61,397 bases of DNA, taken from positions 1 to 61,397 of the IMG/VR virus record IMGVR_UViG_3300017971_000306. One strand, given 5' to 3'. A model generated the notes under the pieces. That model was given only the letters and a program-made list of their open reading frames with translations. It did no database searches and was not told where the DNA came from. Each line of letters starts with the position of its first letter. Position 1 is the stretch's first letter. This stretch comes from a virus. Positions 33,283-61,397 of this stretch are shown here, one piece after another. The translations under genes were made by a program, and so were the position numbers.

Positions 33283-33737
33283 GCGTGGTGAGAGGATGGA
33301 CGTGTCAGGACTGTTTGAGGAAATACCGGGATGGGGACAAGACAACCTTCCCCATCACCATATACCCCAACCCCGCAGACATACACTGCAAGGGGAAGCC
33401 AGCCTGTGTACAGCTGGAGATCACCGAGGAGGATCAGGTGGAGTTGGGACAGGATCGGCTCCGGGACAACCTGATGAAGGACTACAGACTGATGAGCCGG
33501 GATTACACCCTAGAGTTGTTGGACAAGGTGGAGGAGATCCTGAAGGCCCATCTCATGATGGCGTGGCAGTGGGTTAACAGGGCCGTGATGGACATCGATG
33601 GCACCCACACGGTGATCCTCGACTATCCAATCAAATCCCCTTCTCTGGACGTGTACGACAATCTGACAGAGTTGATCAAATATCTCAAGAAAAAGCTGGA
33701 GAGTACAGATGGCGAGGGTGAAGCGCAAGAAGGTTGA
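33279..33737 (+). CDS. Hypothetical zinc-binding-like protein (152 aa)
   Basis: ATG 33279 overlaps the previous stop (ATGA). N-terminus WTCQDCLRKY and a later C..C pair suggest a metal knuckle; the rest is helical. It lies between the loader candidate and the helicase and overlaps the helicase start by 29 bases. Role unknown. Confidence 0.6.
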   Translation: MSVVRGWTCQDCLRKYRDGDKTTFPITIYPNPADIHCKGKPACVQLEITEEDQVELGQDRLRDNLMKDYRLMSRDYTLELLDKVEEILKAHLMMAWQWVNRAVMDIDGTHTVILDYPIKSPSLDVYDNLTELIKYLKKKLESTDGEGEAQEG

Positions 33738-35268
33738 GAACAGTGTCGAGAGGAGAATGGCCACTGGCATGATTGTCAGCACCCGGGCTCTGCGGGAGAT
33801 CCAGACCCTGTACAACGAGGATCTGGTGGAGATCCCCTATGTGCGCCGGATAGCCAACTGGTGTCTGGAGTATTTCAGCCGCTATCAGAGAGCCCCGGGA
33901 AAGCACATACAGGACATATTCAACAGTCAGGTCCGCAAGGGGATGGATGAGGATGAGGCAGACCTGATCAGTGATTTCCTTGACGAGATCTCCGAGGAGT
34001 ATGCCCGGGCCGATCACTTCAACGTCCCATACCTGCTGGATGAGGTGGAGGAGCGGCTCAAGGCCATCAGCCTCCAACATCTGGCCGAGGACATACAAGC
34101 CCATCTGTCCAATGGAAGCACTCTGGAGGCCGAGGGCCTGCTGGGGCAATATGACAGGATCTCCCGGCCCTCCTCCAATGGGGTCAACCCACTGGATGAT
34201 CCAGAGGTGGTTCAAGCCGCTTTTGAATCCCGGGCCGAGCCCCTGTTCACTCTCCCGGGAGCCGCAGGGGATCTCCTGAATGACCAGCTGGTCCGGGGAG
34301 GCTTTCTGGGCTTCATGGGAAAGGCCAAGATTGGCAAGACAGCGATGTTGCTTGAGATGGTCCACCGGAGCCTCCTGCACCGCAACAACACAGCATTCTT
34401 CTCAGCCGGGGATGAGACACAGGAGGATATGACAGTCAGGCACCATGTACGCTTGGCAGGAAAGAGCAATCAGGGGAGGTACTGTGGGAAGCTGTGGGTG
34501 CCAGTCCTTGATTGCGAATACAACCAAGATAACACCTGCAACCGGAAGCACCGGGAGGGTGACACCGGACTGGAGGGTGCGACCTCGATGGAGGATGCCC
34601 CGGATGACTACAAGCCCTGTTCATATTGTGCCAAGCATGATCGGCCCCGCTTCCGGGGAGCCATGTGGTACAGGCGCAGAGATCCCGTGACCCCTCTGAC
34701 ATGGAGAGAGGGGCTCAAGATCGGCCAGAGGTTTATGAAGCGGCTGAAGGGCCGTCAGTTCAAGCTTGTGACCACTCCCAACAGCACTCTGACAGTACAG
34801 GATATTGAGGCCCATCTGGATGCTTGGGAGCACTTTGATGGATGGGTCCCGGATGTCATTGTGATTGACTATGCGGACATCATGGCCCCGGAGCCCGAGG
34901 ACCGCAGGAAGGATACCCGGGACCAACAGAATGGGACGTGGAAAGCCCTGCGCAGACTATCCCAGAAGCGGCATGTGCTGGTCATCACGGCTACCCAAGC
35001 GGATGCTGAAAGCTATGACACAGCCAGACTCAAGCTCAAAAACTTCTCTGAGTGCCGGCAGAAGTATGATCACGTGACCGGGATGCTGGGGCTCAACCAG
35101 ACTGATGAAGAGAAGCGGCGTGGCATCATGAGAGTGGGTTGGATGCTCCTGCGCCACGGTGAGTTTGACCCGAGCCGGATGACTGTCTTGCTCCAATGTC
35201 TCCAACAGGGCAGGCCGCTGATCGGATCTTTTCCCCTGCGGTTCAAGAAGAAAGACAAAAAGGCATAG
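33709..35268 (+). CDS. DnaB-like replicative helicase with zinc insertion
   Basis: 519 aa, ATG 33709 after GGAGAGTACAG. Helical N-terminal domain, then a RecA core with Walker A GKAKIGKTA (204-212) and Walker B DVIVIDYAD near 384-392. Between them, residues 259-307 hold five Cys (259, 269, 277, 304, 307) with His and Lys, an insertion not found in standard DnaB. It should unwind DNA with the separate primase. Confidence 0.85.
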   Translation: MARVKRKKVENSVERRMATGMIVSTRALREIQTLYNEDLVEIPYVRRIANWCLEYFSRYQRAPGKHIQDIFNSQVRKGMDEDEADLISDFLDEISEEYARADHFNVPYLLDEVEERLKAISLQHLAEDIQAHLSNGSTLEAEGLLGQYDRISRPSSNGVNPLDDPEVVQAAFESRAEPLFTLPGAAGDLLNDQLVRGGFLGFMGKAKIGKTAMLLEMVHRSLLHRNNTAFFSAGDETQEDMTVRHHVRLAGKSNQGRYCGKLWVPVLDCEYNQDNTCNRKHREGDTGLEGATSMEDAPDDYKPCSYCAKHDRPRFRGAMWYRRRDPVTPLTWREGLKIGQRFMKRLKGRQFKLVTTPNSTLTVQDIEAHLDAWEHFDGWVPDVIVIDYADIMAPEPEDRRKDTRDQQNGTWKALRRLSQKRHVLVITATQADAESYDTARLKLKNFSECRQKYDHVTGMLGLNQTDEEKRRGIMRVGWMLLRHGEFDPSRMTVLLQCLQQGRPLIGSFPLRFKKKDKKA

Positions 35269-35369: not shown

Positions 35370-36029
35370 ATGGCCAGAAAGACAACGACAGAGGGTGACG
35401 AGGGGATCCAGACCGAGAGACTGATTGCGGCGGCACGGGACATGAACACCGTGATGGGCCTCGATCCGGCTATTGGCACGGATGACGAGGGCAATGATAT
35501 CATTGAAGATTTGCCCGATGAGGACCTGACAGCCGCTATCAAGAATGAGGCTGACGAGGTACTGGCGAAAGACAAACTTGAGGATGACACGTGGGCAGTC
35601 CTTGAGGAATTGGGCGTGGCTGAGAAGGCCATAGCCGAGCGCAACAAGAAAGCCCCGGCAAAGGAGGAGAAAGTGGCAGACAAAAAGAAAGCCGCAAAAG
35701 ACAAGAAGGCTCCCGCCAAGGGCAAGGACAAGAAAGCCCCGGCCAAGGAGGAGAAAAAGGCAAAGGCTCCCAAGAAGGAAAGCAAGCCCAAGGAGCCCAA
35801 GGGACCCCGCTACAGCAGAGCCCGGGCCGTGGCCGATGCGCTGGGCAAGGTCAAAAAGACCTTCACCGTGCAGGAGTTGGCTGAGAAGGCTGATGAGCTG
35901 TACAAGGACGTCACTGGCGGGTCCAACGTCAAGGAGGCCCTTGCGGTTGCCAAGATCGCAGTGGGTGTCCTCGATCAGCTGGGCACGATTCAGGCCGCTG
36001 AGGAAAAGAACACCTACACCAAGGCATAA
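35370..36029 (+). CDS. Lys/Ala-rich nucleoid-type protein with C-terminal winged-helix-like domain
   Basis: 219 aa, ATG 35370 after AAAGGAGGAAAACC. Residues 90-145 are histone-H1-like repeats of KKAPAKEEK and KDKKAPAKG. The C-terminal 70 residues (ARAVADALGKVKKTFTVQEL, then ADELYKDVTGGSN) look like a small winged-helix domain. It has its own promoter and may coat DNA or regulate transcription. Confidence 0.65.
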   Translation: MARKTTTEGDEGIQTERLIAAARDMNTVMGLDPAIGTDDEGNDIIEDLPDEDLTAAIKNEADEVLAKDKLEDDTWAVLEELGVAEKAIAERNKKAPAKEEKVADKKKAAKDKKAPAKGKDKKAPAKEEKKAKAPKKESKPKEPKGPRYSRARAVADALGKVKKTFTVQELAEKADELYKDVTGGSNVKEALAVAKIAVGVLDQLGTIQAAEEKNTYTKA

Positions 36030-36031
36030 TC

Positions 36032-36886
36032 ATGTCTTGGGTCCGGTGCGCTGACTACAAGCGGGACACGCTTCAGAGCATCCCCGATCACATCTGGTCG
36101 GGGATGCCTGACGTGTCGGGCAAGCGGGTGTTCATAAAGCCCAATTTGGTCTGTCCCCCTACCCGTTGGGACAAGGCCTCCACCACATCGGTGAACGTGG
36201 TCCGGCTCGTGATCGAGCGGCTACAGGATGCCGGGGCCTCCTCCATCGTTGTAGGTGACTGCGGCTTCCAGGATCAGTGGGATGCCACGCTGGAGATCTC
36301 CGGCTATGGCAAGCTGTCCAAGCAGTACGGGGTGGAGTTGATCGGCCTCCAGTGCGGCCCCAATTTTCACCGCTTCACCCTCCACCGTCTGAACAAGGGT
36401 GAATACATGTCTTTGTATGGGGCCAAAATATCCGATTTTGTATTGGGGTGCGACACTGTTTTCAACCTGCCCAAGCTCAAGGTCCACTCCATGGCTCTGG
36501 TCACCGGGGCTATCAAGAACATGATGGGCACGATGGCCCAGAAGGGCTCCATGCATCCCAAGGCCAATATCAAGATCCTTCACAAGCGGCTCCGGGACCT
36601 GTACTACATCATGAGCCCTCTGGTTGGATTTGTCCTGATGGATGGGGTCTATGGATCGGAGTACACCGAGCAATACGGGGTCCCGGTTCACTCGGGTCTG
36701 CTCATATCCGGGACAGACATGTGGGAGGTGGATTGTCTGGCGGCTTCTGCCATGGATATCTGCCACGAGGATGTGCCCTATTTGACGTACATAGGCAGGG
36801 ACAAGGCTATAGACAGCCCTGACCTGATCGATGAATCTGCTGTCATCTCGTATGAAAGGCCGTTGGCATGGCGAAAGACAAAGTGA
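36032..36886 (+). CDS. DUF362-family protein
   Basis: 284 aa. VFIKPNLVCPPTRWDKASTT, SIVVGDCGF, and NLPKLKVHSMALVTGAIKNM followed by GTMAQKGSMHP are the conserved blocks of DUF362. Bacterial members often carry ferredoxin clusters; here no CxxCxxC set is present. The biochemical role of the family is not established to my knowledge. It is coupled to a radical-SAM gene (19-base overlap), implying a shared redox or modification pathway. Unusual in a phage. Confidence 0.8.
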   Translation: MSWVRCADYKRDTLQSIPDHIWSGMPDVSGKRVFIKPNLVCPPTRWDKASTTSVNVVRLVIERLQDAGASSIVVGDCGFQDQWDATLEISGYGKLSKQYGVELIGLQCGPNFHRFTLHRLNKGEYMSLYGAKISDFVLGCDTVFNLPKLKVHSMALVTGAIKNMMGTMAQKGSMHPKANIKILHKRLRDLYYIMSPLVGFVLMDGVYGSEYTEQYGVPVHSGLLISGTDMWEVDCLAASAMDICHEDVPYLTYIGRDKAIDSPDLIDESAVISYERPLAWRKTK

Positions 36887-38001
36887 ATATCAGCAAGGCC
36901 AAGTTTGGTTCCATTGTAGGATGGCGGGGGGATAGCCTCTGCTGTCCACAGGCTTTCGGGGGAGATTGCTATGGGGGATGCAGTTGCGGGTGTTGGTGGT
37001 GCTTCTGTCGGGAGATGGAGGAGGAGATGTTCACCAAATACTACACTGGCTGGCACCGGGATCTCGTCAGGCCAGCTAGCCCGGAGGACTTCAAAAAGCT
37101 GTTCGACAAAATGCACTCTGACAAGCCCACCAAGAATTGGGAAGTCAAGTGCCTCCGGGAGGGCCTGCCCTTCAACATGGGCTCCAAGGCCGAGACATTC
37201 TGTTTGGAGGACCTGAATGACAGTGTAGTGATCCCAATTCTGGAGTTGTTCCGGGAGGCCGGGGTGCCTCTGATCCTTGAGACCAAAACCCATTATGTGG
37301 GGCTGGAGCGGTACATGGACGTGCTCAAGGATCTCGACTGCGCCGTGATCGTGGCAATCATGGGAGGATCGGACACGCTCAACTACAAGCTGGAGCCCGG
37401 GGTGCCTATGGCCTCGGCTCGGTGGTATCTCGTGGAACAGCTGAACAAGCGGGGGATCTGGACCGGGGTGCGGTGGGAGCCTGTCATGGCCACCATCAAC
37501 GACAAGCAGGCCATGTTTGAGCAATACGCTGAGATGTGTGTCAGGACCGGGGCCAAGCATGCCTCCATATTCAACTACAGGACCAGCCTGCCTCGGAGGG
37601 GCCAAGAGGAGTTTGAGAAGCGTGGCATCAACTACATCAGGATGCTGGAGGGCAATCTGGATGAGAAGTGGCGGCCCAAGGGACAGGCCCTGATCCAAGC
37701 CCTCAAGGACCGGGGTGTCAAAGTGTCCTCCCCTGACTTTGTGAACTTCCCCTTTGGGAATGCGTGCGAAAGCTGTTGTGGGGTAGATGGGCTGTTCAAG
37801 CCCTATCAGTTCACCTTTCAGCACGCCTGCAAACGGATCGAGGAGGAGGGCTCAGTGTGCTGGGATGATATGGAGGAGATCACCTTCAGAGAGCCCAAGG
37901 CCTATGAGCGGATGAAGGAGCACTGGAATGGCGGGGGGCAGTACTATTACTGGACGACAGCCCCGAGATCAAGGTGCTGGACCGGGACAAGCAGGGCATG
38001 A
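36868..38001 (+). CDS. Radical-SAM enzyme (SPL-like), with apparent C-terminal frame break
   Basis: 377 aa. The cluster motif C38-x3-C42-x2-C45 lies in CYGGCSCGCWWCF; a GGS/TxE-type middle (LILETKTHYVGL, AIMGGSDTL) fits the SPL-like barrel. A second Cys group (NACESCCGVDG, near 308-315) could bind an auxiliary cluster. The annotated end (YYYWTTAPRSRCW...) looks unnatural, whereas the -1 frame from the G6 run at 37933-37938 reads LDDSPEIKVLDRDKQGMKIY and ends at 38050 beside the next start. Substrate unknown. Confidence 0.75.
   Translation: MAKDKVNISKAKFGSIVGWRGDSLCCPQAFGGDCYGGCSCGCWWCFCREMEEEMFTKYYTGWHRDLVRPASPEDFKKLFDKMHSDKPTKNWEVKCLREGLPFNMGSKAETFCLEDLNDSVVIPILELFREAGVPLILETKTHYVGLERYMDVLKDLDCAVIVAIMGGSDTLNYKLEPGVPMASARWYLVEQLNKRGIWTGVRWEPVMATINDKQAMFEQYAEMCVRTGAKHASIFNYRTSLPRRGQEEFEKRGINYIRMLEGNLDEKWRPKGQALIQALKDRGVKVSSPDFVNFPFGNACESCCGVDGLFKPYQFTFQHACKRIEEEGSVCWDDMEEITFREPKAYERMKEHWNGGGQYYYWTTAPRSRCWTGTSRA
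37933..37938 (+). other. G6 run at apparent -1 frame shift in radical-SAM gene
   Basis: Downstream of this run the -1 frame carries a natural-looking C-terminus to a TAG at 38048-38050, overlapping the next ATG at 38045. It is either programmed slippage, a mutation or a sequencing error. Confidence 0.5.
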
Positions 38002-38044
38002 AGATATATGGCAGGAAAAACCCAGAGGAAAAGGAGGGGCTGAT

Positions 38045-38515
38045 ATGGTAGCAGATGAGCATTGGATGTTGGGGCCACACAGATTGTCCTTCATCCCGGA
38101 GGACACACTGGAGATGAAGGCCGTGCCTGCGGCTCATGTAATCGAGTTGGTGGGGAAGGCTTGGCCGGGGGAGGCCGTGTTCATATCCCGGAAGCCCATC
38201 AATCATGAGGCTCAATTGATACACAAGGAGACATGCGAGGTCATAGCCTCGTGGGGCTCCAACCGGGAGGCCTTCATACAGCTGTGGGAGGATGCCCGGG
38301 AGGGGAGGCCCCTGCTTCACTCTGAGAGCCTCCGGGTGGCGCAGTTTGGCGATTACAGGAAGGCCCAGCTGGCCTTGTTGGAGGACAAGATCAATCACAT
38401 ACTGGCCGAGGGCCGGGAGTGGTTATTGGAGGGTGAAATGTTCCAGCTGACGCAGTCAGGGGTGGAGCTCAAAATGGTGATCAAAGAAGATGAAGCACCC
38501 GTGCCCTCTTCATGA
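38045..38515 (+). CDS. Hypothetical protein (156 aa) between radical-SAM genes
   Basis: ATG 38045 with AAAGGAGGGGCTGAT upstream. Mixed N-terminal domain, helical C-terminal half (AQLALLEDKINHILAEGREW). It has one Cys and no cluster motif. Located between the two radical-SAM genes, so a partner or substrate-binding role is conceivable. Confidence 0.6.
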   Translation: MVADEHWMLGPHRLSFIPEDTLEMKAVPAAHVIELVGKAWPGEAVFISRKPINHEAQLIHKETCEVIASWGSNREAFIQLWEDAREGRPLLHSESLRVAQFGDYRKAQLALLEDKINHILAEGREWLLEGEMFQLTQSGVELKMVIKEDEAPVPSS

Positions 38516-38593
38516 CACGCTAACATGCCGCTTGACCATCCTCGGATATCATCTGAGGGTGCTCAAGTTGGCTATCCGGGAGGAGTTGCCGAG

Positions 38594-40003
38594 ATGGCTG
38601 AGATGGATTATTGGACGCTGAGAAAGAATGTCAGCAAGATCGTGCCCCGCATGACACAGCTATTCCGGGAGCGCAAGAAGGTCCGGGCTGTCAGAGAGAA
38701 GGGCCGCAAGAGCGGCTACAAGCAGTACAATCTCCGGACCCGGGAGTGGGTCAAACAGGAGCGGCTACTGAACACCGAGGAGGTCAACAGCTTTGCGGAG
38801 ATCTCTGTCAGGGCTCAGGCCTGTCCGATGCCCCTCAACCTCGATGTCTGGGATGGACTGATCTGTCCATTTGCTTGTAAGTATTGCTATGCCAATGCCT
38901 TCCGGGCTAGCCTGTACACGGCCTTTTTCGACAACAGCAAGACAATGGGCTTCCGGCACTGCAACCCAAGCTATTACAAGGGTGAGCTGGACAAGCTGAT
39001 GAAGCACCGGGGGAAGGACCCGCAGAGCGTGCCACAGGACGTGCCCCGGGCTATCGCAATGGAGATCCCCATGAGGCTCGGGATCAGGTTTGAAGACTTC
39101 CTGCGCAATGAGGAAAAGGAGGGGATCAGCTTGGAGTTGTTGCGCTATCTAGCCCAAGAGGACTATCCAGTGATGATCAATACCAAATCGGATCTCGTGG
39201 GCCATGAGGACTATCTGGAGGCACTGGGCTCCAACGAGGGGAGGACAGCTGTCCACGTCACGGTGATCTCCTCCAATGACCAGATCCTCAAGACACTGGA
39301 GCCGGGAGCCCCGCCATTTGACAAGCGGGTGGAAGCCTGCGAAAGGCTGGCCGGGGCCGGGGTGCGACCTGTGGCCCGGATCGAGCCATATTTGGTGTTC
39401 CTGTGCGACAGCCCGGATGAGGTGGAGGAGTACATGGAGAGGATGTGGGAGGCCGGGGTGCGGCATATCACGTTTGATACATACAGCTACACCGCTCACA
39501 ACCCGGGGATCAGACAGGACTTCATCAACTGCGGGGTGGACTTTGAGCGGCTGTTTCTGCTGGGGTGCGACAGTCAGGGCCTCGGGAGCCTCCTGCTGGG
39601 CAAGTTTATGGAGTTGTTCCGGGAGAGGGGCTTCAGCTGTAGCACTTTCGATATTGGCAATGCGGCCTCCAATTCCCAGACCATCTGCTGTGAGGTTGGG
39701 GACTGGTTTCAGGGGGGATGGAATTATGGGTGCACGGTCATAGCGGCCCGATTCATCAAGAGCCGGGGAACACAGCCCACCCGCTGGAAGGATTTTGTTG
39801 AGCATGTCGAGGAGCATGGGGGCTTCCTGAGTGAGGCCCTGAGGATGGACGTTCACAGGCTCTGGAATGTCGAGGGCAACGAGGCCTATGCCTCCAACTG
39901 GTGTCAGGGGATCGAGCCTGTGGGGGCCGATGAGGATGGGATTGTCTGGCACTATCTGGAGGGGGATGACTTCCGGGAGCGGCTATTGGAGGAGTGTTTA
40001 TGA
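38594..40003 (+). CDS. Radical-SAM enzyme, spore-photoproduct-lyase-like
   Basis: 469 aa. Start at ATG 38594 with GGGAGGAG upstream; an ATG at 38525 lacks a ribosome site. Cluster motif C91-x3-C95-x2-C98 in CPFACKYCYA, followed by a helix-strand barrel with MINTKSDLVG and VTVISSNDQIL as in SPL-like proteins. C-terminal Cys residues (SQTICCEVGDW) may ligate another cluster. SPL repairs thymine dimers, but the family includes many enzymes of unknown substrate. Confidence 0.8.
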   Translation: MAEMDYWTLRKNVSKIVPRMTQLFRERKKVRAVREKGRKSGYKQYNLRTREWVKQERLLNTEEVNSFAEISVRAQACPMPLNLDVWDGLICPFACKYCYANAFRASLYTAFFDNSKTMGFRHCNPSYYKGELDKLMKHRGKDPQSVPQDVPRAIAMEIPMRLGIRFEDFLRNEEKEGISLELLRYLAQEDYPVMINTKSDLVGHEDYLEALGSNEGRTAVHVTVISSNDQILKTLEPGAPPFDKRVEACERLAGAGVRPVARIEPYLVFLCDSPDEVEEYMERMWEAGVRHITFDTYSYTAHNPGIRQDFINCGVDFERLFLLGCDSQGLGSLLLGKFMELFRERGFSCSTFDIGNAASNSQTICCEVGDWFQGGWNYGCTVIAARFIKSRGTQPTRWKDFVEHVEEHGGFLSEALRMDVHRLWNVEGNEAYASNWCQGIEPVGADEDGIVWHYLEGDDFRERLLEECL

Positions 40004-40702: not shown

Positions 40703-41004
40703 GCGGTGGATCTTTTGACTATTTGTGTCACAAGGAATTGGACTATTTCATGTGTACAGAGCGGGGTCTGGATGAGATGATTTGCGCTCTGGCAGAGTTG
40801 GGATATGCTGAGGATGCGGCTGTTGCCACCCAGCAATTCCTTCTGGACCTCCGGAAGGCCAAAGTCAGGCTGGAAGCATCCCTGTCTGATCTCCAGCCCG
40901 TATGGAAAGCAATTGAGTGGTGGAAGTCATGCGACACTTCCGAGGATGCGTTCAAGAAAGCACTAGCAAAGTGGAGAGGAGAAACAGATGAGTCAAGTGA
41001 GTAA
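40699..41004 (+). CDS. Hypothetical phage protein, MSGGSFDYL family (101 aa)
   Basis: The MSGGSFDYLCHKE opening is one I know from many phage small proteins of unknown role. The remainder is helical (DEMICALAELGYAEDA). Its end overlaps the next start. Confidence 0.65.
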   Translation: MSGGSFDYLCHKELDYFMCTERGLDEMICALAELGYAEDAAVATQQFLLDLRKAKVRLEASLSDLQPVWKAIEWWKSCDTSEDAFKKALAKWRGETDESSE

Positions 41005-41824
41005 CAGGGTGGAGGAGATCTTTGCCCACGCAGTGGCGATGGATCAGGCCGGGAGGCTCCGCAGTACCATTTACGTGATTGACCGGGAGGTGTACATCAT
41101 CAATCAGGACAACACGGTGTTCCTGCGGTTCAAGCTCAGGGAGAGTGAGAAGCCCTTTGAGGAGCCTGTCAGCTTCCGGGCCAATGACTATGACTCCCGG
41201 GCCTTCCGGGAGGAGGGTGGCAAGATTGTGTTTGAGACTGAGGCCAATGGCTTCATCCGGACCAAGACCTGCGGCACCCCAGACGCTGACCCGGAGGAGA
41301 TCCGGGACATGTTCAAGAAGTTCAAGCCCGTCAAGGTCAACAAGGTCAAGCTGAGCCGGGACATCCTCCCACTTCTGGAGGAGGGCCTGAGCCACATCGA
41401 GATCCGGGCCGAGGAGGGGGAGATCAAGTTTGTTCAGCGCAACATCTACTCGGGTGCGGTGATCGAGATCTCCCGGGCCGTTGACACTGGGGCTCTGGGG
41501 GTGGACAACCCCGATGAACTGGAGGAGGACTTTGGGCCGCTCGGCCTGCGCACAGGTGACTTCTCGGCCCTGTTTGCGTTCAATGATAATCTGGTGTTCA
41601 CCTTCCCACCCGAGGGGCAAGGTGACTACTGTTGTGTGAGAAGCAGGGACCCCAAAATGGCCATGGATGGGGTAGTGGCTTGTTGTGTGTATGATGAGCT
41701 GGGCCAGATCTCGGAGGTGAGCGATGGGAGGAAAGAGCAGAAAAAGCGGGGGAGTCAGCAAGGCTCTGATAAACAAACTGTCAAAGGGAAAGAACAAGTG
41801 CGGAAGCGGGTGCGCACCAAGTAA
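40988..41824 (+). CDS. Hypothetical protein (278 aa), possible clamp-like fold
   Basis: Alternating strands and short helices (STIYVIDREVYIINQDN, LSRDILPLLEEGLSHIEI, DNLVFTFPPEG) recall a diverged DNA clamp, but no motif proves it and a true clamp lies at 42992. The last 45 residues are Lys/Gln-rich and overlap a second frame at 41724-41888. Unknown. Confidence 0.55.
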   Translation: MSQVSNRVEEIFAHAVAMDQAGRLRSTIYVIDREVYIINQDNTVFLRFKLRESEKPFEEPVSFRANDYDSRAFREEGGKIVFETEANGFIRTKTCGTPDADPEEIRDMFKKFKPVKVNKVKLSRDILPLLEEGLSHIEIRAEEGEIKFVQRNIYSGAVIEISRAVDTGALGVDNPDELEEDFGPLGLRTGDFSALFAFNDNLVFTFPPEGQGDYCCVRSRDPKMAMDGVVACCVYDELGQISEVSDGRKEQKKRGSQQGSDKQTVKGKEQVRKRVRTK

Positions 41825-41888
41825 CAAACAGAAGCGGGGGAAGGGATTTGATCTGCTATCTGAACAATCTGAAGGCGCAGGGGATTGA
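41724..41888 (+). CDS. Possible small basic protein (54 aa) overlapping two genes
   Basis: ATG 41724 has CTCGGAGGTGAGCG upstream, a good ribosome site. The peptide (MGGKSRKSGGVSKALINKL..., CGSGC) is Lys/Gly-rich. It overlaps the 278-aa gene by 101 bases and bridges to the next gene, whose own start is otherwise weak. Confidence 0.45.
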   Translation: MGGKSRKSGGVSKALINKLSKGKNKCGSGCAPSNKQKRGKGFDLLSEQSEGAGD

Positions 41889-42663
41889 CCCCAATTTCTG
41901 GTGCTCGGAGGAGTATGCCGGCAAGGCAGGCCTGATTGAGCGCAAGATCCGGGATGGCGGGACCGTCAGAGTGCTTGATCCTGCCACGGGATGGGATGTC
42001 CTGCCACCGATCCACCCCACTGATGGGTATAGTCATGGGTGGAAGGGTCCGGAGCGCATCTGGAGTGATTTTGAGGGCTACAACCCGGAGGGCTACAACA
42101 AGCACTTTCTTGATTATGAGTACATCTATGACCCCCGGGCTTTCACTGACATGAGCGGGGGCAAATGGATGGTGTTTCGCAAGAACAGCCGCAAGTGGCC
42201 CCGGAGGCACGGACACGCTGGCAGTTACATGTCAGTGGAGTTTGCCGCCCCAGAGCGGTGGGAGATCGAGGAGTTGCTTGTGAGCTGGCTCGGGACCCTG
42301 CCAGAGGATGGAGAGGTGCATGATGACGAGGTCATGCTGAAATATGCCTTTGAGGGGGAACACCGAGTGTGTCTGTGGGACAAGGACACCAAGCTGATCG
42401 GGATGAACGTCTGGGACAGCAACTGGAGGTTCAACAATTTCCGGTACAGCATATGCCAGCCCCAACCCTTTCTGGCCGAGTACATGAGGCTGTTGTTCTA
42501 CACTCAACCCGAGATCCTTGCCGGGGCCCAGAATGGGAAGCTGGTGAATGATGGAGGGATCTTGGACAGGCCGAGCCTCAAGACATTCAAGGACAAGATG
42601 AACCCGCTCAGGGTCCGGAAGGTCCACAGCTGGCAGGCCGCTGTCGAGGGGGATGAGGCATGA
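41848..42663 (+). CDS. DUF2156/GNAT-like acyltransferase candidate
   Basis: 271 aa; TTG 41848 is the only usable start in frame, with a weak GGGGGAAGGGA upstream, so the exact N-terminus is uncertain. DYEYIYDPRAFTDMSGGKWM, FRKNSRKW and a late LVNDGGILDRPSLKTFKDKM match the shape of DUF2156-type GNAT proteins (aminoacyl or acyl transferases). It could modify a small molecule, lipid or nucleic acid; a link to the upstream radical-SAM cassette is speculative. Confidence 0.55.
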   Translation: MICYLNNLKAQGIDPNFWCSEEYAGKAGLIERKIRDGGTVRVLDPATGWDVLPPIHPTDGYSHGWKGPERIWSDFEGYNPEGYNKHFLDYEYIYDPRAFTDMSGGKWMVFRKNSRKWPRRHGHAGSYMSVEFAAPERWEIEELLVSWLGTLPEDGEVHDDEVMLKYAFEGEHRVCLWDKDTKLIGMNVWDSNWRFNNFRYSICQPQPFLAEYMRLLFYTQPEILAGAQNGKLVNDGGILDRPSLKTFKDKMNPLRVRKVHSWQAAVEGDEA

Positions 42664-42995
42664 GTGAACAGTGCCCGCTGATGGGAGAGTGCGGCTATGC
42701 TACAGGCTACCCGCTGTGCTCATATCGGGAGTATTGGGAAGGGGCCGCATGCTATTTGGGAGTCAAGCTGAAAAGGGCCGAGGCCCGCATCATAGAATTG
42801 GAGGCCAAGCTGTATGAGCAAGCGGAAGAAAAAGCGCAAGAAGAAACACAAACCGCTTCCGGAGGTCCCGGGAGCCAAACTGCCAGACTTCCAGACAGAG
42901 TATCTGACCCAAGTATGGACAGAGAAGCCGCTGGAGGGCCGGGAGTTGATTCAACTGAATCTGGAACAGCAACGCAAAAAGGAGGAGAGCAATGA
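42660..42995 (+). CDS. Cys-containing protein (111 aa) overlapping two frames
   Basis: ATG 42660 overlaps the previous stop (ATGA). The first half (CPLMGECGYATGYPLCSYREY, then a helix) looks genuine; after about residue 55 composition shifts to Gly/Ser/Pro, where the frame overlaps the gene at 42814. The real product may be shorter through frameshift, or the overlap is genuine. Confidence 0.55.
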   Translation: MSEQCPLMGECGYATGYPLCSYREYWEGAACYLGVKLKRAEARIIELEAKLYEQAEEKAQEETQTASGGPGSQTARLPDRVSDPSMDREAAGGPGVDSTESGTATQKGGEQ

Positions 42996-43122
42996 AGGTA
43001 CAACGGGAAAAGCTATTGGAAACACTGGGGAAGGTCCAGCCGGGGCTAGCCGGGAAAACAGAGGTGATCGAGCAGAGCCAGTCATTTGTGTTCCTGAAGG
43101 ATCGGGTGGTGACGTACAATGA
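42814..43122 (+). CDS. Basic protein (102 aa) overlapping neighbours
   Basis: ATG 42814 with GGAGG nine bases upstream. Starts MSKRKKKRKKKHK, then LPDFQTEYLTQVWTEKPL, which looks like real coding. The final 43 residues overlap the clamp gene in another frame and are less convincing. Confidence 0.5.
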   Translation: MSKRKKKRKKKHKPLPEVPGAKLPDFQTEYLTQVWTEKPLEGRELIQLNLEQQRKKEESNEGTTGKAIGNTGEGPAGASRENRGDRAEPVICVPEGSGGDVQ

Positions 43123-44008
43123 CGAGATCGCAGTCAGTGCGCCGCTCAAGTCAGGGATCGAGGGTGCTGTCAAGGGGGATGAGCTCATCAAACTCCTCAG
43201 CAAGCTGAAGGATGAGGGCCTTGAGCTGGAGCCGGGGGAGGGTGAACTGCTCCTCAAAGGCAAAAAGGTCCGGTCAGGCATCCGCATGGAAGCCGAGATC
43301 AGCCTGCCACTGGAGGAGATCCAGCCCCCAGAGGACTTCACCGAGGTCCCGGAGGCCTTCTGCGAGGGCCTGAAGTTTTGTATGTTCTCGGCCTCGACAG
43401 ACAAGGCCAAACCCATCTTGGGATGCCTCAAGATCGAGGGCCAGCACGTCCTGTCCTGTGACAACTACCGTCTGACCCGCTATGACATGGGGAAGAAAGC
43501 CGCTGATGCCTTCCCAGAGCCCCTTCTGCTCCCGGCTATCTCAGCCCGGGAGTTGCTGTCATACAAGCCCACTGAGTACGGCACGAGCCGGGGCTGGGTC
43601 CACTTCAACACGGAGGGTGGGGTGGTGTTCTCCTGCCGCACGTTTGAGGAGGCATACCCCAAAGTGGAGCACCTGCTGGACGTGGAGGGTGACACGGTTG
43701 AATTCCCTGCCAATATGAAGGCCATGCTCACCCGGGCCGAGATCTTCACTCAGGGGGAAGGCTCCAGTGACTCCCGGATCGAGGTTGCGCTGGAGGATGA
43801 CAAGATGATCCTGACGGGCCGGGGTGACTATGGTTGGCTCAAGGAGAGGGCCAAAGTGAAGCACGGGAAAGGCAAGGCCAAGTTCACAATCCACCCCCAA
43901 TTCCTGACAGACGTTTTGGACGTGCTCCGGGAGGTCCAGATTGGCTCCAACCGGATGAAGATGGAGGGGGACAATTTCATACATGTAGCTTGCCTTGTAG
44001 CGGGGTGA
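42992..44008 (+). CDS. DNA polymerase sliding clamp (beta-clamp-like)
   Basis: 338 aa, ATG 42992 with AAAGGAGGAGAGCA upstream. Three repeated clamp modules are suggested: an N-terminal MKVQREKLLETLGKVQPGL, a central FSASTDKAKPILGCLKIEG with SCDNYRLTRYDM, and a C-terminal HPQFLTDVLDVLREV. These match DnaN. The canonical MPM(R/K)L ending is replaced by NFIHVACLVAG. It would tether the polymerase to DNA, loaded by the protein at 48350. Confidence 0.85.
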   Translation: MKVQREKLLETLGKVQPGLAGKTEVIEQSQSFVFLKDRVVTYNDEIAVSAPLKSGIEGAVKGDELIKLLSKLKDEGLELEPGEGELLLKGKKVRSGIRMEAEISLPLEEIQPPEDFTEVPEAFCEGLKFCMFSASTDKAKPILGCLKIEGQHVLSCDNYRLTRYDMGKKAADAFPEPLLLPAISARELLSYKPTEYGTSRGWVHFNTEGGVVFSCRTFEEAYPKVEHLLDVEGDTVEFPANMKAMLTRAEIFTQGEGSSDSRIEVALEDDKMILTGRGDYGWLKERAKVKHGKGKAKFTIHPQFLTDVLDVLREVQIGSNRMKMEGDNFIHVACLVAG

Positions 44009-44469: not shown

Positions 44470-44929
44470 TGGACTGGAACAGGATGTATTGAAGGCAGTG
44501 GAGGAGCATCTGCCGGCACAGATCGGGAATGTGCTCAGGAAGCGGCTGGAGGAGGCCGAGGGCCTGAAGGCCAGACTGGAGGATTCAGAGGCCAAGAGAA
44601 TTGACATCAAGAAGAACATGGACCAATTCATTGCGGAGAATGATGAGCTCAAAGAGCTCAAGAACACCCGAGCCGCACTGGACCAGAAGGACAGGGAGTT
44701 GACAGACCGGGAGAAGGCCTGCGAGCACCGGGAGAAATGTTGCGAGATCCGGGAAGCCCACGCCACTGAGAAGGTGACGCTGGTCCGGGGAGTTGTACAG
44801 GACGTGTTCCGCAACAACGTCATCAAGACCTCCGTGTATGGAGGCCGGGATGTTCCAGATGGCAGGCCGGGGTATGAGGGAATGTCCAGCCGAGTCAACC
44901 ACGATGAAACGACAGAAGTGGAAGGCTGA
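44462..44929 (+). CDS. Coiled-coil protein (155 aa)
   Basis: Overlaps the previous gene by eight bases, with GGAGGAAACAG upstream. Residues 20-105 are continuous charged helix (LEEAEGLKARLEDSEAKR...). Unknown. Confidence 0.6.
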   Translation: MSDGLEQDVLKAVEEHLPAQIGNVLRKRLEEAEGLKARLEDSEAKRIDIKKNMDQFIAENDELKELKNTRAALDQKDRELTDREKACEHREKCCEIREAHATEKVTLVRGVVQDVFRNNVIKTSVYGGRDVPDGRPGYEGMSSRVNHDETTEVEG

Positions 44930-46143
44930 TGGAAGGCTTTTTCACCAAGGATGAATATGAGGTCTCAGCACCCCGGCGCAAGGTCCCGGGGTGCGGGGCC
45001 TGCAAGCTGAACCGCAAGTGCCTCAGCCCCAAGATGCCGGCAACCGGAGCAGGCCGCAAGCGCATCCTGATGTTTGCTGAGGCCCCGGGTGAGCTGGAGG
45101 ACCGCAGGAACACCCAGCTGATCGGGGATGCGGGTCAGGAGTTGAGGGAGGAGTTGGAACACCACCACATAGAATTGGACGTGGATTGCGTGAAGACCAA
45201 TGCCCTCATCTGTCGGCCTCCCAAGAACAGGACCCCCTCAGGCCGGGAGATCGAGTGTTGCCGCCCCAACCTGCTCAAGACCATCGAGCAGGTCCAGCCC
45301 AAGCTGATCATTCCCCTCGGGAAAGCCGCTGTCAATGCGCTGTATGGTCACCGCTTGAAGGAGGGCAACGAGGGGATTGGAAAGTGGAGGGGCTTCACAA
45401 TCCCGGATCGGGACCTCAATGCGTGGGTCTGCCCCACCCTTCACCCCAGCTACATTTTGAGACAGGATAGTGATGATGTGAGCCGTGTAATTTGGCGGCA
45501 GGATCTGGCCCGGGCCTTCCGGCTACTGGGCACGCCATTCCCTCCATGGCAGGAGCCACGAGAATGTGTCAGGGTGACACGGGACCCCTCCAAGGTGTCC
45601 AAATACCTTCACGGCCTGCTCTCACGTGATTCTGCCACCATAGCGTATGACTATGAAACCAGTGGAATCAAGCCCCACGCCCGGGGCCACCTCATCAGGA
45701 CAATAGGTGTCGCTGACAGTCCGGATCGGGCCTTTGCCTTCCCGGCTAGCCCGGAGATCATCCCTGTGTGGAAAAAGGTGCTGGCGGCTCCACACCTCCG
45801 GCTCATGGCCCAAGACATCAAGTATGAGGGGAAATGGTCCCGGGAGATCTTGGAGGTGATCCCGGCAGGGTGGCTGTGGGACACCATGCTCTGCTCCCAC
45901 GTGATAGACAACAGGCCGTATATCAACAGCCTCAAGTTTCAGGCCTTTGTCCGGTTTGGTCAGGGTGACTATTCCAGCCACCTGAATGAGTTCATGAGGA
46001 GCCAGACCGCCAACGACATGAACAGGATCGAGGAGGCCCCGCTGAAGGAGTTGCTCATTTACAATGCCATGGATGCTTTGCTGACCTTCCGGCTGGCACT
46101 CTGGCAGATGGAGGTATTGGGATTTGATAACAACAGCGACTAG
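44929..46143 (+). CDS. Uracil-DNA glycosylase fused to DnaQ-like 3'-5' exonuclease
   Basis: 404 aa. Residues 20-200 are a family 4/5-type UDG: Cys 22, 25, 95 and 111 with the spacing of the iron-sulfur ligands, FAEAPGELE (49-57) and LHPSY (171-175). Residues 235-400 are a DEDD exonuclease: DYETSG (241-246), AQDIKYEGKW (Asp 296) and YNAMDALL (Tyr 378, Asp 382). This exonuclease would proofread for the separate polymerase gene, which overlaps it by 20 bases. The fusion adds base excision to proofreading. Confidence 0.85.
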   Translation: MEGFFTKDEYEVSAPRRKVPGCGACKLNRKCLSPKMPATGAGRKRILMFAEAPGELEDRRNTQLIGDAGQELREELEHHHIELDVDCVKTNALICRPPKNRTPSGREIECCRPNLLKTIEQVQPKLIIPLGKAAVNALYGHRLKEGNEGIGKWRGFTIPDRDLNAWVCPTLHPSYILRQDSDDVSRVIWRQDLARAFRLLGTPFPPWQEPRECVRVTRDPSKVSKYLHGLLSRDSATIAYDYETSGIKPHARGHLIRTIGVADSPDRAFAFPASPEIIPVWKKVLAAPHLRLMAQDIKYEGKWSREILEVIPAGWLWDTMLCSHVIDNRPYINSLKFQAFVRFGQGDYSSHLNEFMRSQTANDMNRIEEAPLKELLIYNAMDALLTFRLALWQMEVLGFDNNSD

Positions 46144-47488
46144 GTTGGACGCATACCACCTTATGCATCACGGGATTATTGCACTGGAGAAGGTGGAGCA
46201 CAATGGAATAGCCATAGATGTTGGCTATGCGGAGGCCCAATTCAAGACTCTGGGAAGCCGGATCAAGGAGACACAGACCAAGCTTGAGAGCACCACCGTT
46301 GTCAAGAAGTGGAAAGCCGAGTATGGCAGTGACTTCCTGTGGGACTCAAACGAACAGCTGGCTGACGTTTTGTTCAACAAGATGGACTACAAACCTGCCC
46401 GGCTAACCAAGACCGGACAGCCAAGCACTGATGAGGCCTCATTGTCTGCCCTCCGGCTCCCGATGATGAAAGGCCTCATCAGGCTCCGGAAGATGGAAAA
46501 GACCCGCAACACCTACCTTGCCAGCATCCTCCGGGAGGTGGTGGAGGGCTTTGTTCACCCCATCTTCAAGCTACACTCCGTGCGGACATACAGGAGCAGT
46601 TGTTCCAACCCCAATTTCCAGAACATGCCCATCAGAGATCCGATCATGGGCAAGATCATCCGCAGGTGTATCATCCCCCGGCCCGGGAGACAGATTGTGG
46701 AGATTGACTTCAGCGGCTTGGAGGTCCGGATTGCGGCCTGCTACCACAAGGACCCCAACATGCTGGCCTATATCGAGGACCCCACGAAAGACATGCACCG
46801 TGACATGGCCGGGGAATGCTTCATGCTTCCCCCTGTCGAGGTGACAAAGGATGCCCGCTATTGTGGCAAGAACATGTTTGTTTTCCCAGAGTTTTATGGC
46901 GATTATCACGTGCGGTGTGCCGCCAACCTATGGGATGCGATCCCCAAAATGAAGCTGGCAACTGTCTCCGGGACCCCGATGAAGGACCACCTGCGCTCAG
47001 AGGACATCCGGGGCCTGCCCTCCTTCACCCGTCATATCAAGGCTGTTGAGAAGGATTTTTGGGGCCGGAGGTTCAGGGTGTATGACCAGTGGAAGCGGGA
47101 CCATTACAACCGCTATCTGCGCAACGGATCTTTTGACATGCTGACAGGCTTCCGGGTGTCCGGGGTCCTCAGCAGGAATGATGTGATCAACTATCCCGTT
47201 CAGGGTGCGGCTTTCCACTGCCTCCTCTGGTGCCTGACTGAGCTTCAGAAGTGGCTGGAGGAGGAGGGGATGGAGAGCCTGATCATTGGACAGATCCACG
47301 ACTCAATTGTGATGGATGTGGTCCCAGAGGAGATGGAGGCCGTGTTGGCCAAGGCTCAGGACCTCATGACCCGGGCTATCCGGGAGCACTGGGACTGGAT
47401 CGTGGCACCGCTGGAGATCGAGGCCGAGGTGGCCCCGGTGGACGCCAGCTGGTGGGACAAGAAAGAAGTGAAACTGGAGGCCGCATGA
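46124..47488 (+). CDS. Family A DNA polymerase, polymerase domain only
   Basis: 454 aa, ATG 46124. Motif A VEIDFSGLEVRIA (Asp 195), a changed motif B (R245-x3-K249...FYG at 257-259) and motif C GQIHDSIVMDV are present. The exonuclease domain is in the upstream gene, so PolA is split in two. Motif C has HDS in place of the usual HDE. It should be the replicative polymerase with the clamp. Confidence 0.9.
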   Translation: MITTATRLDAYHLMHHGIIALEKVEHNGIAIDVGYAEAQFKTLGSRIKETQTKLESTTVVKKWKAEYGSDFLWDSNEQLADVLFNKMDYKPARLTKTGQPSTDEASLSALRLPMMKGLIRLRKMEKTRNTYLASILREVVEGFVHPIFKLHSVRTYRSSCSNPNFQNMPIRDPIMGKIIRRCIIPRPGRQIVEIDFSGLEVRIAACYHKDPNMLAYIEDPTKDMHRDMAGECFMLPPVEVTKDARYCGKNMFVFPEFYGDYHVRCAANLWDAIPKMKLATVSGTPMKDHLRSEDIRGLPSFTRHIKAVEKDFWGRRFRVYDQWKRDHYNRYLRNGSFDMLTGFRVSGVLSRNDVINYPVQGAAFHCLLWCLTELQKWLEEEGMESLIIGQIHDSIVMDVVPEEMEAVLAKAQDLMTRAIREHWDWIVAPLEIEAEVAPVDASWWDKKEVKLEAA

Positions 47489-53607: not shown

Positions 53608-53798
53608 TGTTGGTTGATTTTGAAAAGGAGGGTGTGGTACAGGGGGAGCGGCTGGAGTGCCTCACGTGCAAGATGAAAAGCATGGTTCCAATACAGGCCT
53701 TCTTTGAAGATGGGACAGCTTTGCTCAAGTGGGTCCGGTACAGGTGCGAATGCGGGGCCGAGTTCAAAGTGTCAGGAGTGGGTGATGGACATACCTGA
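53607..53798 (+). CDS. Small zinc-type protein (63 aa)
   Basis: ATG 53607 overlaps the RuvC stop (TGATG). CLTCK and CECG make a four-Cys ribbon. Unknown. Confidence 0.6.
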   Translation: MLVDFEKEGVVQGERLECLTCKMKSMVPIQAFFEDGTALLKWVRYRCECGAEFKVSGVGDGHT

Positions 53799-54210
53799 AT
53801 ACCAGAGATTCAAGATGCCTGCGACACGCCAGAGCGTGACCCACAAGGCCGAGATGGGCGGTGTTGAATTCTACATCACTGTGGGGCTGGTTGGCGGCAG
53901 GCCGATGGAGGTGTTCATCAAGGCCGGGACCTTGCCCCCGGAGATCGAGGATGATTTTGGCTTTCAGGGCTGGTGTGATATCACTGCTGAGTTGTCCTCG
54001 GTGATACTACAAGCCGGGGTCCCGCTGAAGGTCCTGTGCCGGCACCTCCGGGCCCACCGCTTCAAGCCCAGTGGATTTGCCAAGCAAGAGGGGATCGGAC
54101 ACGCCAACAGCGTCCCAGACTATCTGGCCAAATGGATGAACATGAATTGGGGAGAGAAAGATGATCAAGAAGTTGCTGGTCCAAAACTTCCAGAGCCACG
54201 AGGAGAGTGA
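53785..54210 (+). CDS. Stand-alone TSCPD-domain protein
   Basis: 141 aa, ATG 53785. TRQSVTHKAEMGGVEFYITV, VFIKAGTL, SVILQAGVPLKVLCRHL and SVPDYLAKWMN align in order with the TSCPD domain found at the C-terminus of class II ribonucleotide reductases. No reductase is seen in the window. It may regulate host nucleotide reduction or bind nucleotides. Confidence 0.7.
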   Translation: MDIPEYQRFKMPATRQSVTHKAEMGGVEFYITVGLVGGRPMEVFIKAGTLPPEIEDDFGFQGWCDITAELSSVILQAGVPLKVLCRHLRAHRFKPSGFAKQEGIGHANSVPDYLAKWMNMNWGEKDDQEVAGPKLPEPRGE

Positions 54211-60601: not shown

Positions 60602-61397
60602 TTATGAAGCACTCACGAACAGGCCGTTGCAGAAGCAGAAGTTGCACCCTGAATCGGTGAAACTACATGACCCACTGATGCCCGTTCCGTTGATGTTGAA
60701 GCCCTGCCAGCTGTTCCCGAAACAGAAGCAACCATAGTCTATGCAGATATTGTCGCCGCTACCGTCAAAGCAGAACTTTGAACTTCCATCGGAAAAACTG
60801 CCACCACCGCAAAGGAACATATCCCCTTGATTACACACAGAACAGCCCGCTGGCGATTCTATGTACCCGCTCTGTAAGCACCACGCACTTGCCCCCACGG
60901 GGTTGCCCCCAACATAAAGGTTGCCCACGCACAGGGCCTGCGCTGAGTAATCATAGCAGAAGCAACTATCGCTCGAAAGTATGCACCCGCAGAAGCAACT
61001 GTGCTGGAAACACATGACGCAATTCATATCGGTCACGCAGATGTATCCACTGCCCGTATCGTACCATGGGCTTGCGCCGCCCGCACTCCCCGGGATCCAT
61101 CCCCCGCTTGAGCTACAATACACGAGAGCACATCCATCAGTTTCGCTTTCGTGGCATAGGCTCGTGGTGTGCAAACTCCCGCAATAGATCGGAGCGCACA
61201 TGTATGAGCTGGCGCATACCGCTGGGGCACACACCTCCGATGAGGCCAGTAGGCAGGAAGTGGAACAGATACATCCCTGAGCGCACATGCCATTCCCGGC
61301 CCACACTATGCAACCGCCGTCAACAGGCTCGATACACCCACCCCCGCTACTGTTACACCACACGGTAGCAGGAGGGCTTCCGGCTACCCAATTGCCC
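60602..61397 (-). CDS. Cysteine-rich virion protein, N-terminus outside window
   Basis: The frame is open from the right edge (GNWVAGSPPATVW...) to a stop at 60602, at least 264 residues, 35 of them Cys. Cys recurs as CFC, CGC, CxC and single residues in Gly/Ser/Asp-rich beta-like repeats (SCFCGC, SCFCYDYS, GCFCFGN, GCNFCFCNG). No heme CxxCH set. Codon use looks normal and both other minus frames are closed. Possibly a disulfide-rich or metal-binding tail fibre/beta-solenoid. Confidence 0.65.
   Translation of the reverse strand, partial: GNWVAGSPPATVWCNSSGGGCIEPVDGGCIVWAGNGMCAQGCICSTSCLLASSEVCAPAVCASSYMCAPIYCGSLHTTSLCHESETDGCALVYCSSSGGWIPGSAGGASPWYDTGSGYICVTDMNCVMCFQHSCFCGCILSSDSCFCYDYSAQALCVGNLYVGGNPVGASAWCLQSGYIESPAGCSVCNQGDMFLCGGGSFSDGSSKFCFDGSGDNICIDYGCFCFGNSWQGFNINGTGISGSCSFTDSGCNFCFCNGLFVSAS

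Follow-up and report, generated by a model that had tools for sequence, protein, structure and literature searches.

What might a phage do with a DUF362 gene and two radical S-adenosylmethionine (SAM) genes placed among its replication genes? This question is raised by the IMG/VR virus record IMGVR_UViG_3300017971_000306, analysed here over its full length (the window, a 61.4-kb uncultivated virus record of 61,397 nucleotides). Terminase and portal (head/packaging) are encoded on the minus strand, and the genes for DUF362 and the two radical SAM proteins, rSAM1 and rSAM2, are located within a long plus-strand replication block. An earlier note, made from the letters alone, treated these three genes as the unit. 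Sequence comparison with related viruses instead suggests that the functional unit is a constant core (rSAM2-p40988-p41848) with a swappable cassette of rSAM1 and a tailoring enzyme, of which DUF362 is one version. We consider it probable that these genes form a phage system for DNA-base hypermodification, akin to the thymidine-hypermodification kind, with DNA as the presumed substrate. The genes and motifs concerned are the following.

36032..36886, plus strand: DUF362 protein (PF04015, 7e-36; domain at residues 33-238)
36868..38001, plus strand: rSAM1a, spore photoproduct lyase (SPL)-like radical SAM protein, variable and cassette-borne (phrog_13321, 4e-16; NF038135/NF033668, 1e-10)
36979..37002, plus strand: CxxxCxxC [4Fe-4S] motif of rSAM1, invariant in 25 sequences
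38525..40003, plus strand: rSAM2, SPL-like radical SAM protein, constant core (Pfam Radical_SAM, 3e-9)
38864..38887, plus strand: CxxxCxYC motif of rSAM2 (C114, C118, Y120, C121), an intein site in relatives
40988..41824, plus strand: p40988, conserved core protein, downstream of rSAM2 in the great majority of contigs
41848..42663, plus strand: p41848, core protein with the predicted fold of an aminoacyl-tRNA-dependent-transferase-like GNAT protein

About 75 contigs in IMG/VR hold rSAM2 homologs, at 47-100% identity; the clade records are partly fragments, and several are 60-170 kb long. Where flanks are present, the typical order is DnaB, rSAM1, rSAM2, p40988, p41848, clamp, UDG/exonuclease, PolA, clamp loader. 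Co-occurrence, on which the earlier note had made its case depend, was borne out: rSAM1 and rSAM2 occurred together in all 25 records tested, and of 2.9 million contigs, the 11 found to carry DUF362 were precisely those with the rSAM1a subtype. p41848 was present in 23 of 23 records, the window among them. Across the aligned clade set rSAM2 is 57-68% identical, compared with ~30-45% for the clamp and DnaB.

The genes around rSAM1 vary from virus to virus. They include a PALP-type pyridoxal phosphate (PLP) enzyme (34 loci), an aldo/keto reductase (AKR; 17 loci, mostly accompanied by a methyltransferase-like gene), a flavin adenine dinucleotide (FAD) oxidoreductase (4 loci), an amidoligase, glycosyltransferase-like proteins, other methyltransferases and DUF362, and epimerase-like genes occur around the radical SAM pair. 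PALP and AKR avoid each other (both in 1 of 46, p=6e-4), and DUF362 co-occurs with neither. On the rSAM1 tree these labels are strongly clustered, with 3 changes for AKR against 9.3 when shuffled, 10 for PALP against 17.3, and DUF362 confined to one clade. On the rSAM2 tree they are near random (PALP, 17 changes against 17.2 shuffled; 14 changes among the PALP, AKR and DUF362 types), and on the clamp, p40988, p41848 and dnaB trees they are mostly unclustered, AKR and the methyltransferase being somewhat clustered; all these trees came from a quick search and have many weak inner branches, the contrast between trees being the robust part. This contrast shows that rSAM1 moves with its tailoring enzyme, whereas rSAM2, p40988 and p41848 stay.

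Two further arrangements were observed among the relatives. In L019 and L020 an amidoligase gene (PF12224) lies between the PLP enzyme and rSAM2, in the rSAM1b-rSAM2 interval, an idea resembling amide ligation on phage DNA bases. In a few relatives (L073, L102 and L101) the module has another SPL-like radical SAM gene nearby, the third.

The core pair is phage-borne, because among 84,980 bacterial and archaeal genomes it was found on only three small contigs, in bins of metagenome-assembled genomes. Assignment of a host from these contigs was rejected, since they fall in three different phyla and are not trustworthy. A search of 50,697 phage records gave no match for rSAM1, rSAM1b or p41848, and DUF362 and rSAM2 each matched only one weak gut-phage fragment.

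Proteins of the core and the cassette

rSAM1 scores weakly in Pfam (0.057) and matches SPL-like NCBIfam and PHROG profiles at 1e-10 to 4e-16. Its cysteines C38-x3-C42-x2-C45, read correctly in the earlier note, are invariant in 25 sequences and place it in the radical SAM superfamily. For rSAM2, membership is supported by the Pfam match, the predicted fold and cysteines C114, C118 and C121, invariant in 22 sequences; the note had given the same residues as C91, C95 and C98, counting from M24. Homologs support a true start of rSAM2 probably near M24 or M27 (38594 or 38603). The two proteins are full-length homologs of each other (hhalign 99.8%, 5.6e-30).

At position 37949 the window is one base short relative to a 99.95%-identical contig (L003), and the last residues of rSAM1 are frame-shifted, giving 377 amino acids in the window and 394 in L003. 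This is either an assembly error or a real variant.

The closest PDB fold to the rSAM2 model (pLDDT 74, pTM 0.77) was spore photoproduct lyase (Foldseek, E 2e-5), with which it shares the CxxxCxYC motif. SPL acts on thymine in DNA. The phage sequences nevertheless fall far below the SPL family cut-offs (13 of 400 bits for TIGR04070; 12.8 of 27 for PF20903), and differ from SPL in being two paralogs that carry a C-terminal CC motif, to which rSAM2 adds a conserved stretch of ~110 residues at its N terminus. Radical SAM mobile pair B (TIGR04470) is likewise an SPL-like radical SAM pair on mobile DNA; the profile match of rSAM2 is weak (26.9 of 410 bits) and it is not a member. The score for the Npun_F2552 family (NF052623) was 46 of 500 bits.

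In at least 10 related-phage contigs, rSAM2 is interrupted by inteins placed precisely at cluster cysteine C114 or C121, and in some contigs at both (L038, L039, L042, L043, L046, L004, L094, L109, L112, L113, L116). They are contiguous or split, several with a homing-endonuclease-like open reading frame (ORF) between the halves or before the C-half, and L042 and L113 each hold two inteins within a single CxxxCxxC motif. Inteins prefer conserved sites in important genes, and this distribution fits an important role for rSAM2.

The window's DUF362 protein scored 124.6 bits against the PF04015 gathering cut-off of 24. The family belongs to the LarA/DUF2088 clan (PMC11770544). No ferredoxin-type Cys motif was found in the window's protein, and no match among PDB sequences. 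In several relatives a glycosyltransferase-like gene, judged by eye and without a Pfam match, lies between DUF362 and rSAM1a.

The gene at 41848-42663 had been rightly called GNAT/DUF2156-like. The p41848 model (pLDDT 92.5, pTM 0.90) has a dual-GNAT fold, and its best Foldseek PDB matches included L-PGS (1e-9), A-PGS/MprF, FemX and Sbb17, at a TM score of ~0.65. These enzymes take an amino acid from aminoacyl-tRNA and pass it to an acceptor. They differ from p41848 in sequence (10-14% identity), and p41848 is encoded in a replication operon. p40988 had no Pfam or PDB relative, and its comparison with the clamp, as a possible paralog, gave a weak hhalign score of only 17%.

Comparison with known hypermodification clusters

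The clade PLP enzyme belongs to the same family as a gene of Pseudomonas phage M6 (phrog_7093; 37-46% identity). In M6 the PLP gene lies between ADDT and an SPL-like radical SAM gene, followed by the 5-hydroxymethyldeoxyuridine (hmdU) kinase, a helical-domain protein and a thymidylate-synthase homolog. This cluster has been published as the cassette with which M6-like phages modify thymidine (PMC9476957), and M6 DNA contains 5-aminoethyl-deoxyuridine (PMC6449724). The rSAM1 profile matched the M6 radical SAM protein (97.8%, 9e-13) better than rSAM2 did (62.6%), and all three match phrog_13321. Although the earlier note knew of no such phage module, the radical SAM part thus has a precedent in the M6 cluster.

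The clade flavin gene is homologous to genes of PaMx11 and Ab18 (27-28% identity, E ~1e-24), which directly follow ADDT and lie near HMUDK_hel. Two different exchangeable genes, for the PLP and the flavin enzyme, therefore point independently to known thymidine-hypermodification clusters. The tailoring enzymes of the hmdU-derived type (SPL-like radical SAM protein, PLP enzyme, flavoenzyme) all occur in the clade; the window itself has the radical SAM part only.

The M6/YuA cluster and the clade are thus alike in this tailoring set, with an SPL-like radical SAM gene beside a phrog_7093 PLP enzyme and near the DNA polymerase. They differ in that M6 has the thymidylate-synthase homolog, hmdU kinase and ADDT, of which the clade lacks kinase and ADDT, whereas the clade adds a second radical SAM protein, p40988 and the aminoacyl-tRNA-transferase-like GNAT protein, and in the window DUF362 replaces the PLP enzyme. 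The PaMx11/Ab18 cluster shares the flavin enzyme, with an acetyltransferase adjoining; it has ADDT and HMUDK_hel, unlike the clade, in which only a few members carry the flavin gene. A carboxymethylcytosine system of phage, CmoA/CmoX/CmoY, comprises a Cx-SAM synthase, a C5-methyltransferase homolog and an asparagine-synthetase-like ligase (PMC12783734). It places an amino acid on a phage DNA base, as is proposed for the clade, using, by description, other kinds of enzyme.

Several results weigh against hypermodification. Neither ADDT (PF18724) nor the HMUDK_hel helical-domain protein (PF18723) was found in any of 57 clade records, with M6, ViI, PaMx11 and Ab18 all matched as controls, and the 5-hmdU DNA kinase (PF18748) was found in none of 23, with M6 and ViI matched. 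A thymidylate synthase (PF00303), as candidate dUMP hydroxymethylase, occurred in only 3 of 25 relatives of the window, one with internal stops; the M6 homolog had no tblastn match in the window. The known entry route through hmdU is thus missing from these partly fragmentary records, so its replacement by something else would be required. The window has no PLP or flavin gene, and its DUF362 protein has no known function. The rSAM2 model was built on 22 sequences only and is of low confidence around the cluster loop; no cultured phage carries the core; and genes for PLP enzymes, AKR, methyltransferases and glycosyltransferases occur in natural-product pathways too. Clade genomes also avoid 6-mer restriction palindromes. 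Because ADDT and the HMUDK families are absent, the clade system is not a member of the hmdU-derived type, which it resembles in its tailoring half.

Palindrome avoidance was considered as a test for modified DNA and rejected, since M6, ViI and phiW-14, whose DNA is modified, avoid palindromes too. In the window some palindromes are very strongly avoided (CGCG, 0 against 81 expected; CGGCCG, 0 against 40; CTCGAG, 0 against 20), and GATC is not avoided.

For the AKR gene, the search in cultured phages gave general AKR similarity only, with no hypermodification context seen.

A proposed pathway and its alternatives

Among the outputs listed in the earlier note, a modified nucleotide is the best supported; the other two, DNA repair and a signalling product, are less probable. 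Placement in the replisome operon in all relatives favors DNA-base hypermodification. The simplest reading of the gene content is that the entry steps have been taken over by rSAM2, p40988 and p41848. Most likely rSAM2 would activate a base at a carbon that is otherwise unreactive; the analogy with SPL makes the thymine methyl or C5/C6 candidates. p41848 would then deliver an aminoacyl group onto the activated base, possibly from aminoacyl-tRNA, a donor that we suggest only tentatively from the predicted fold. rSAM1 and its matched tailoring enzyme would remodel the appended group, if the steps follow in this order.

In the window the cassette is rSAM1a with DUF362, which may take the role of the PLP enzyme and finish or rearrange the group that rSAM1a makes; this is the weakest step of the proposal. 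In relatives the cassette pairs rSAM1b with a PLP enzyme, or with AKR and methyltransferase, and in some cases includes a flavoenzyme or glycosyltransferase. Phage lineages swap these cassettes with one another, which arms-race selection on the final chemical group would predict. The complete route, which would bypass 5-hydroxymethyluracil through activation of the base in DNA by rSAM2, addition of an amino acid from aminoacyl-tRNA by p41848 and diversification of the products by exchangeable cassettes, is conceivable, if doubtful.

On this complete route, DNA would be aminoacylated by drawing on the translation pool. If the hypermodification reading itself is right, phages have a second, unrelated way to start building large groups on DNA bases, in a module whose finishing chemistry is swapped from lineage to lineage. 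A phage DUF362 protein would gain its first functional context, aminoacyl-tRNA-type transferases would be tied to DNA, and nucleoside mass spectrometry would have a concrete gene set whose product to seek. The reading also suggests that screening by hmdU kinase and ADDT alone can overlook genomes with hypermodified DNA.

The radical SAM pair, the GNAT transferase and the tailoring enzymes could instead yield a sugar, lipid or peptide bearing an amino acid, with the host or the virion as its target. PLP, AKR, FAD, methyltransferase, amidoligase, glycosyltransferase- and epimerase-like genes near the pair are typical of small-molecule pathways, and p41848 is similar to lipid and peptide aminoacyltransferases. 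We regard such a pathway as unlikely: the genes lie between helicase and clamp, away from the structural genes, and the nearest characterised phage relatives of the PLP and flavin genes are DNA-hypermodification genes.

Modification of tRNA or another RNA, with a nucleoside remodelled and aminoacyl-tRNA as donor, would suit the predicted fold of p41848, and reuse of RNA-modification chemistry by phages has precedent (PMC12783734). Against it stand the location in the replisome block, the lack of a tRNA gene in the window and the exchange of variable tailoring between lineages, unusual for a translation function, which make it improbable. Slightly more improbable still is that the SPL-like enzymes repair UV damage or other lesions; the top Foldseek matches and the motif of rSAM2 speak for it, whereas the scores far below the SPL cut-offs and the presence of two paralogs per phage with swapped PLP, AKR, methyltransferase or DUF362 partners fit lesion reversal poorly. 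That these are unrelated auxiliary metabolic genes, adjacent by chance, would agree with the free variation of the surrounding small genes and is highly improbable, being largely refuted by the co-occurrence, with gene order kept in ~75 contigs, strict DUF362-rSAM1a coupling and rSAM2 more conserved than clamp and DnaB.

Flanking genes of the window

The replication block includes an SNF2 helicase, a topoisomerase-like protein, primase, DnaB helicase, sliding clamp, UDG-exonuclease, family A polymerase, clamp loader, gp32-like protein, RecA-like protein and flap nuclease. The genes between and around the core and cassette are the following.

33709..35268, plus strand: DnaB-like replicative helicase (phrog_19, 2.7e-26), order kept in relatives, upstream border of the module
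35370..36029, plus strand: Lys/Ala-rich small protein (phrog_5235, 1e-6)
37928..38515, plus strand: small intervening ORF, not conserved, weak match in relative L011 only
42992..44008, plus strand: sliding clamp (phrog_947, 1e-34), downstream border
44929..46143, plus strand: UDG domain and 3'-5' exonuclease part of the replicase (PF03167, 2e-20)
46124..47488, plus strand: family A DNA polymerase (PF00476, 6e-51)

A shared promoter had been proposed at 35264. No plus-strand sigma70-like site was found there, and the region holds 3 sites against 4.9 expected. Of the genes assigned to the same transcript, the small intervening one and the zinc-ribbon-like one are real ORFs that are not conserved in the clade. 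The C-terminal region of the Lys/Ala-rich protein, ~60 amino acids, is kept upstream of rSAM1 in many relatives.

Rfam and tRNA scans of the window gave no match, nor did PADLOC anti-phage defence profiles for six proteins. The UDG-exonuclease ORF (44929-46143) is separate from the PolA ORF. On the minus strand, 60602-61363 holds an extremely Cys-rich ORF of 253 amino acids, which may be a real virion protein or an alternative frame. The replication block also encodes a TSCPD-domain protein at 53704-54210 (PF12637, 1.5e-8).

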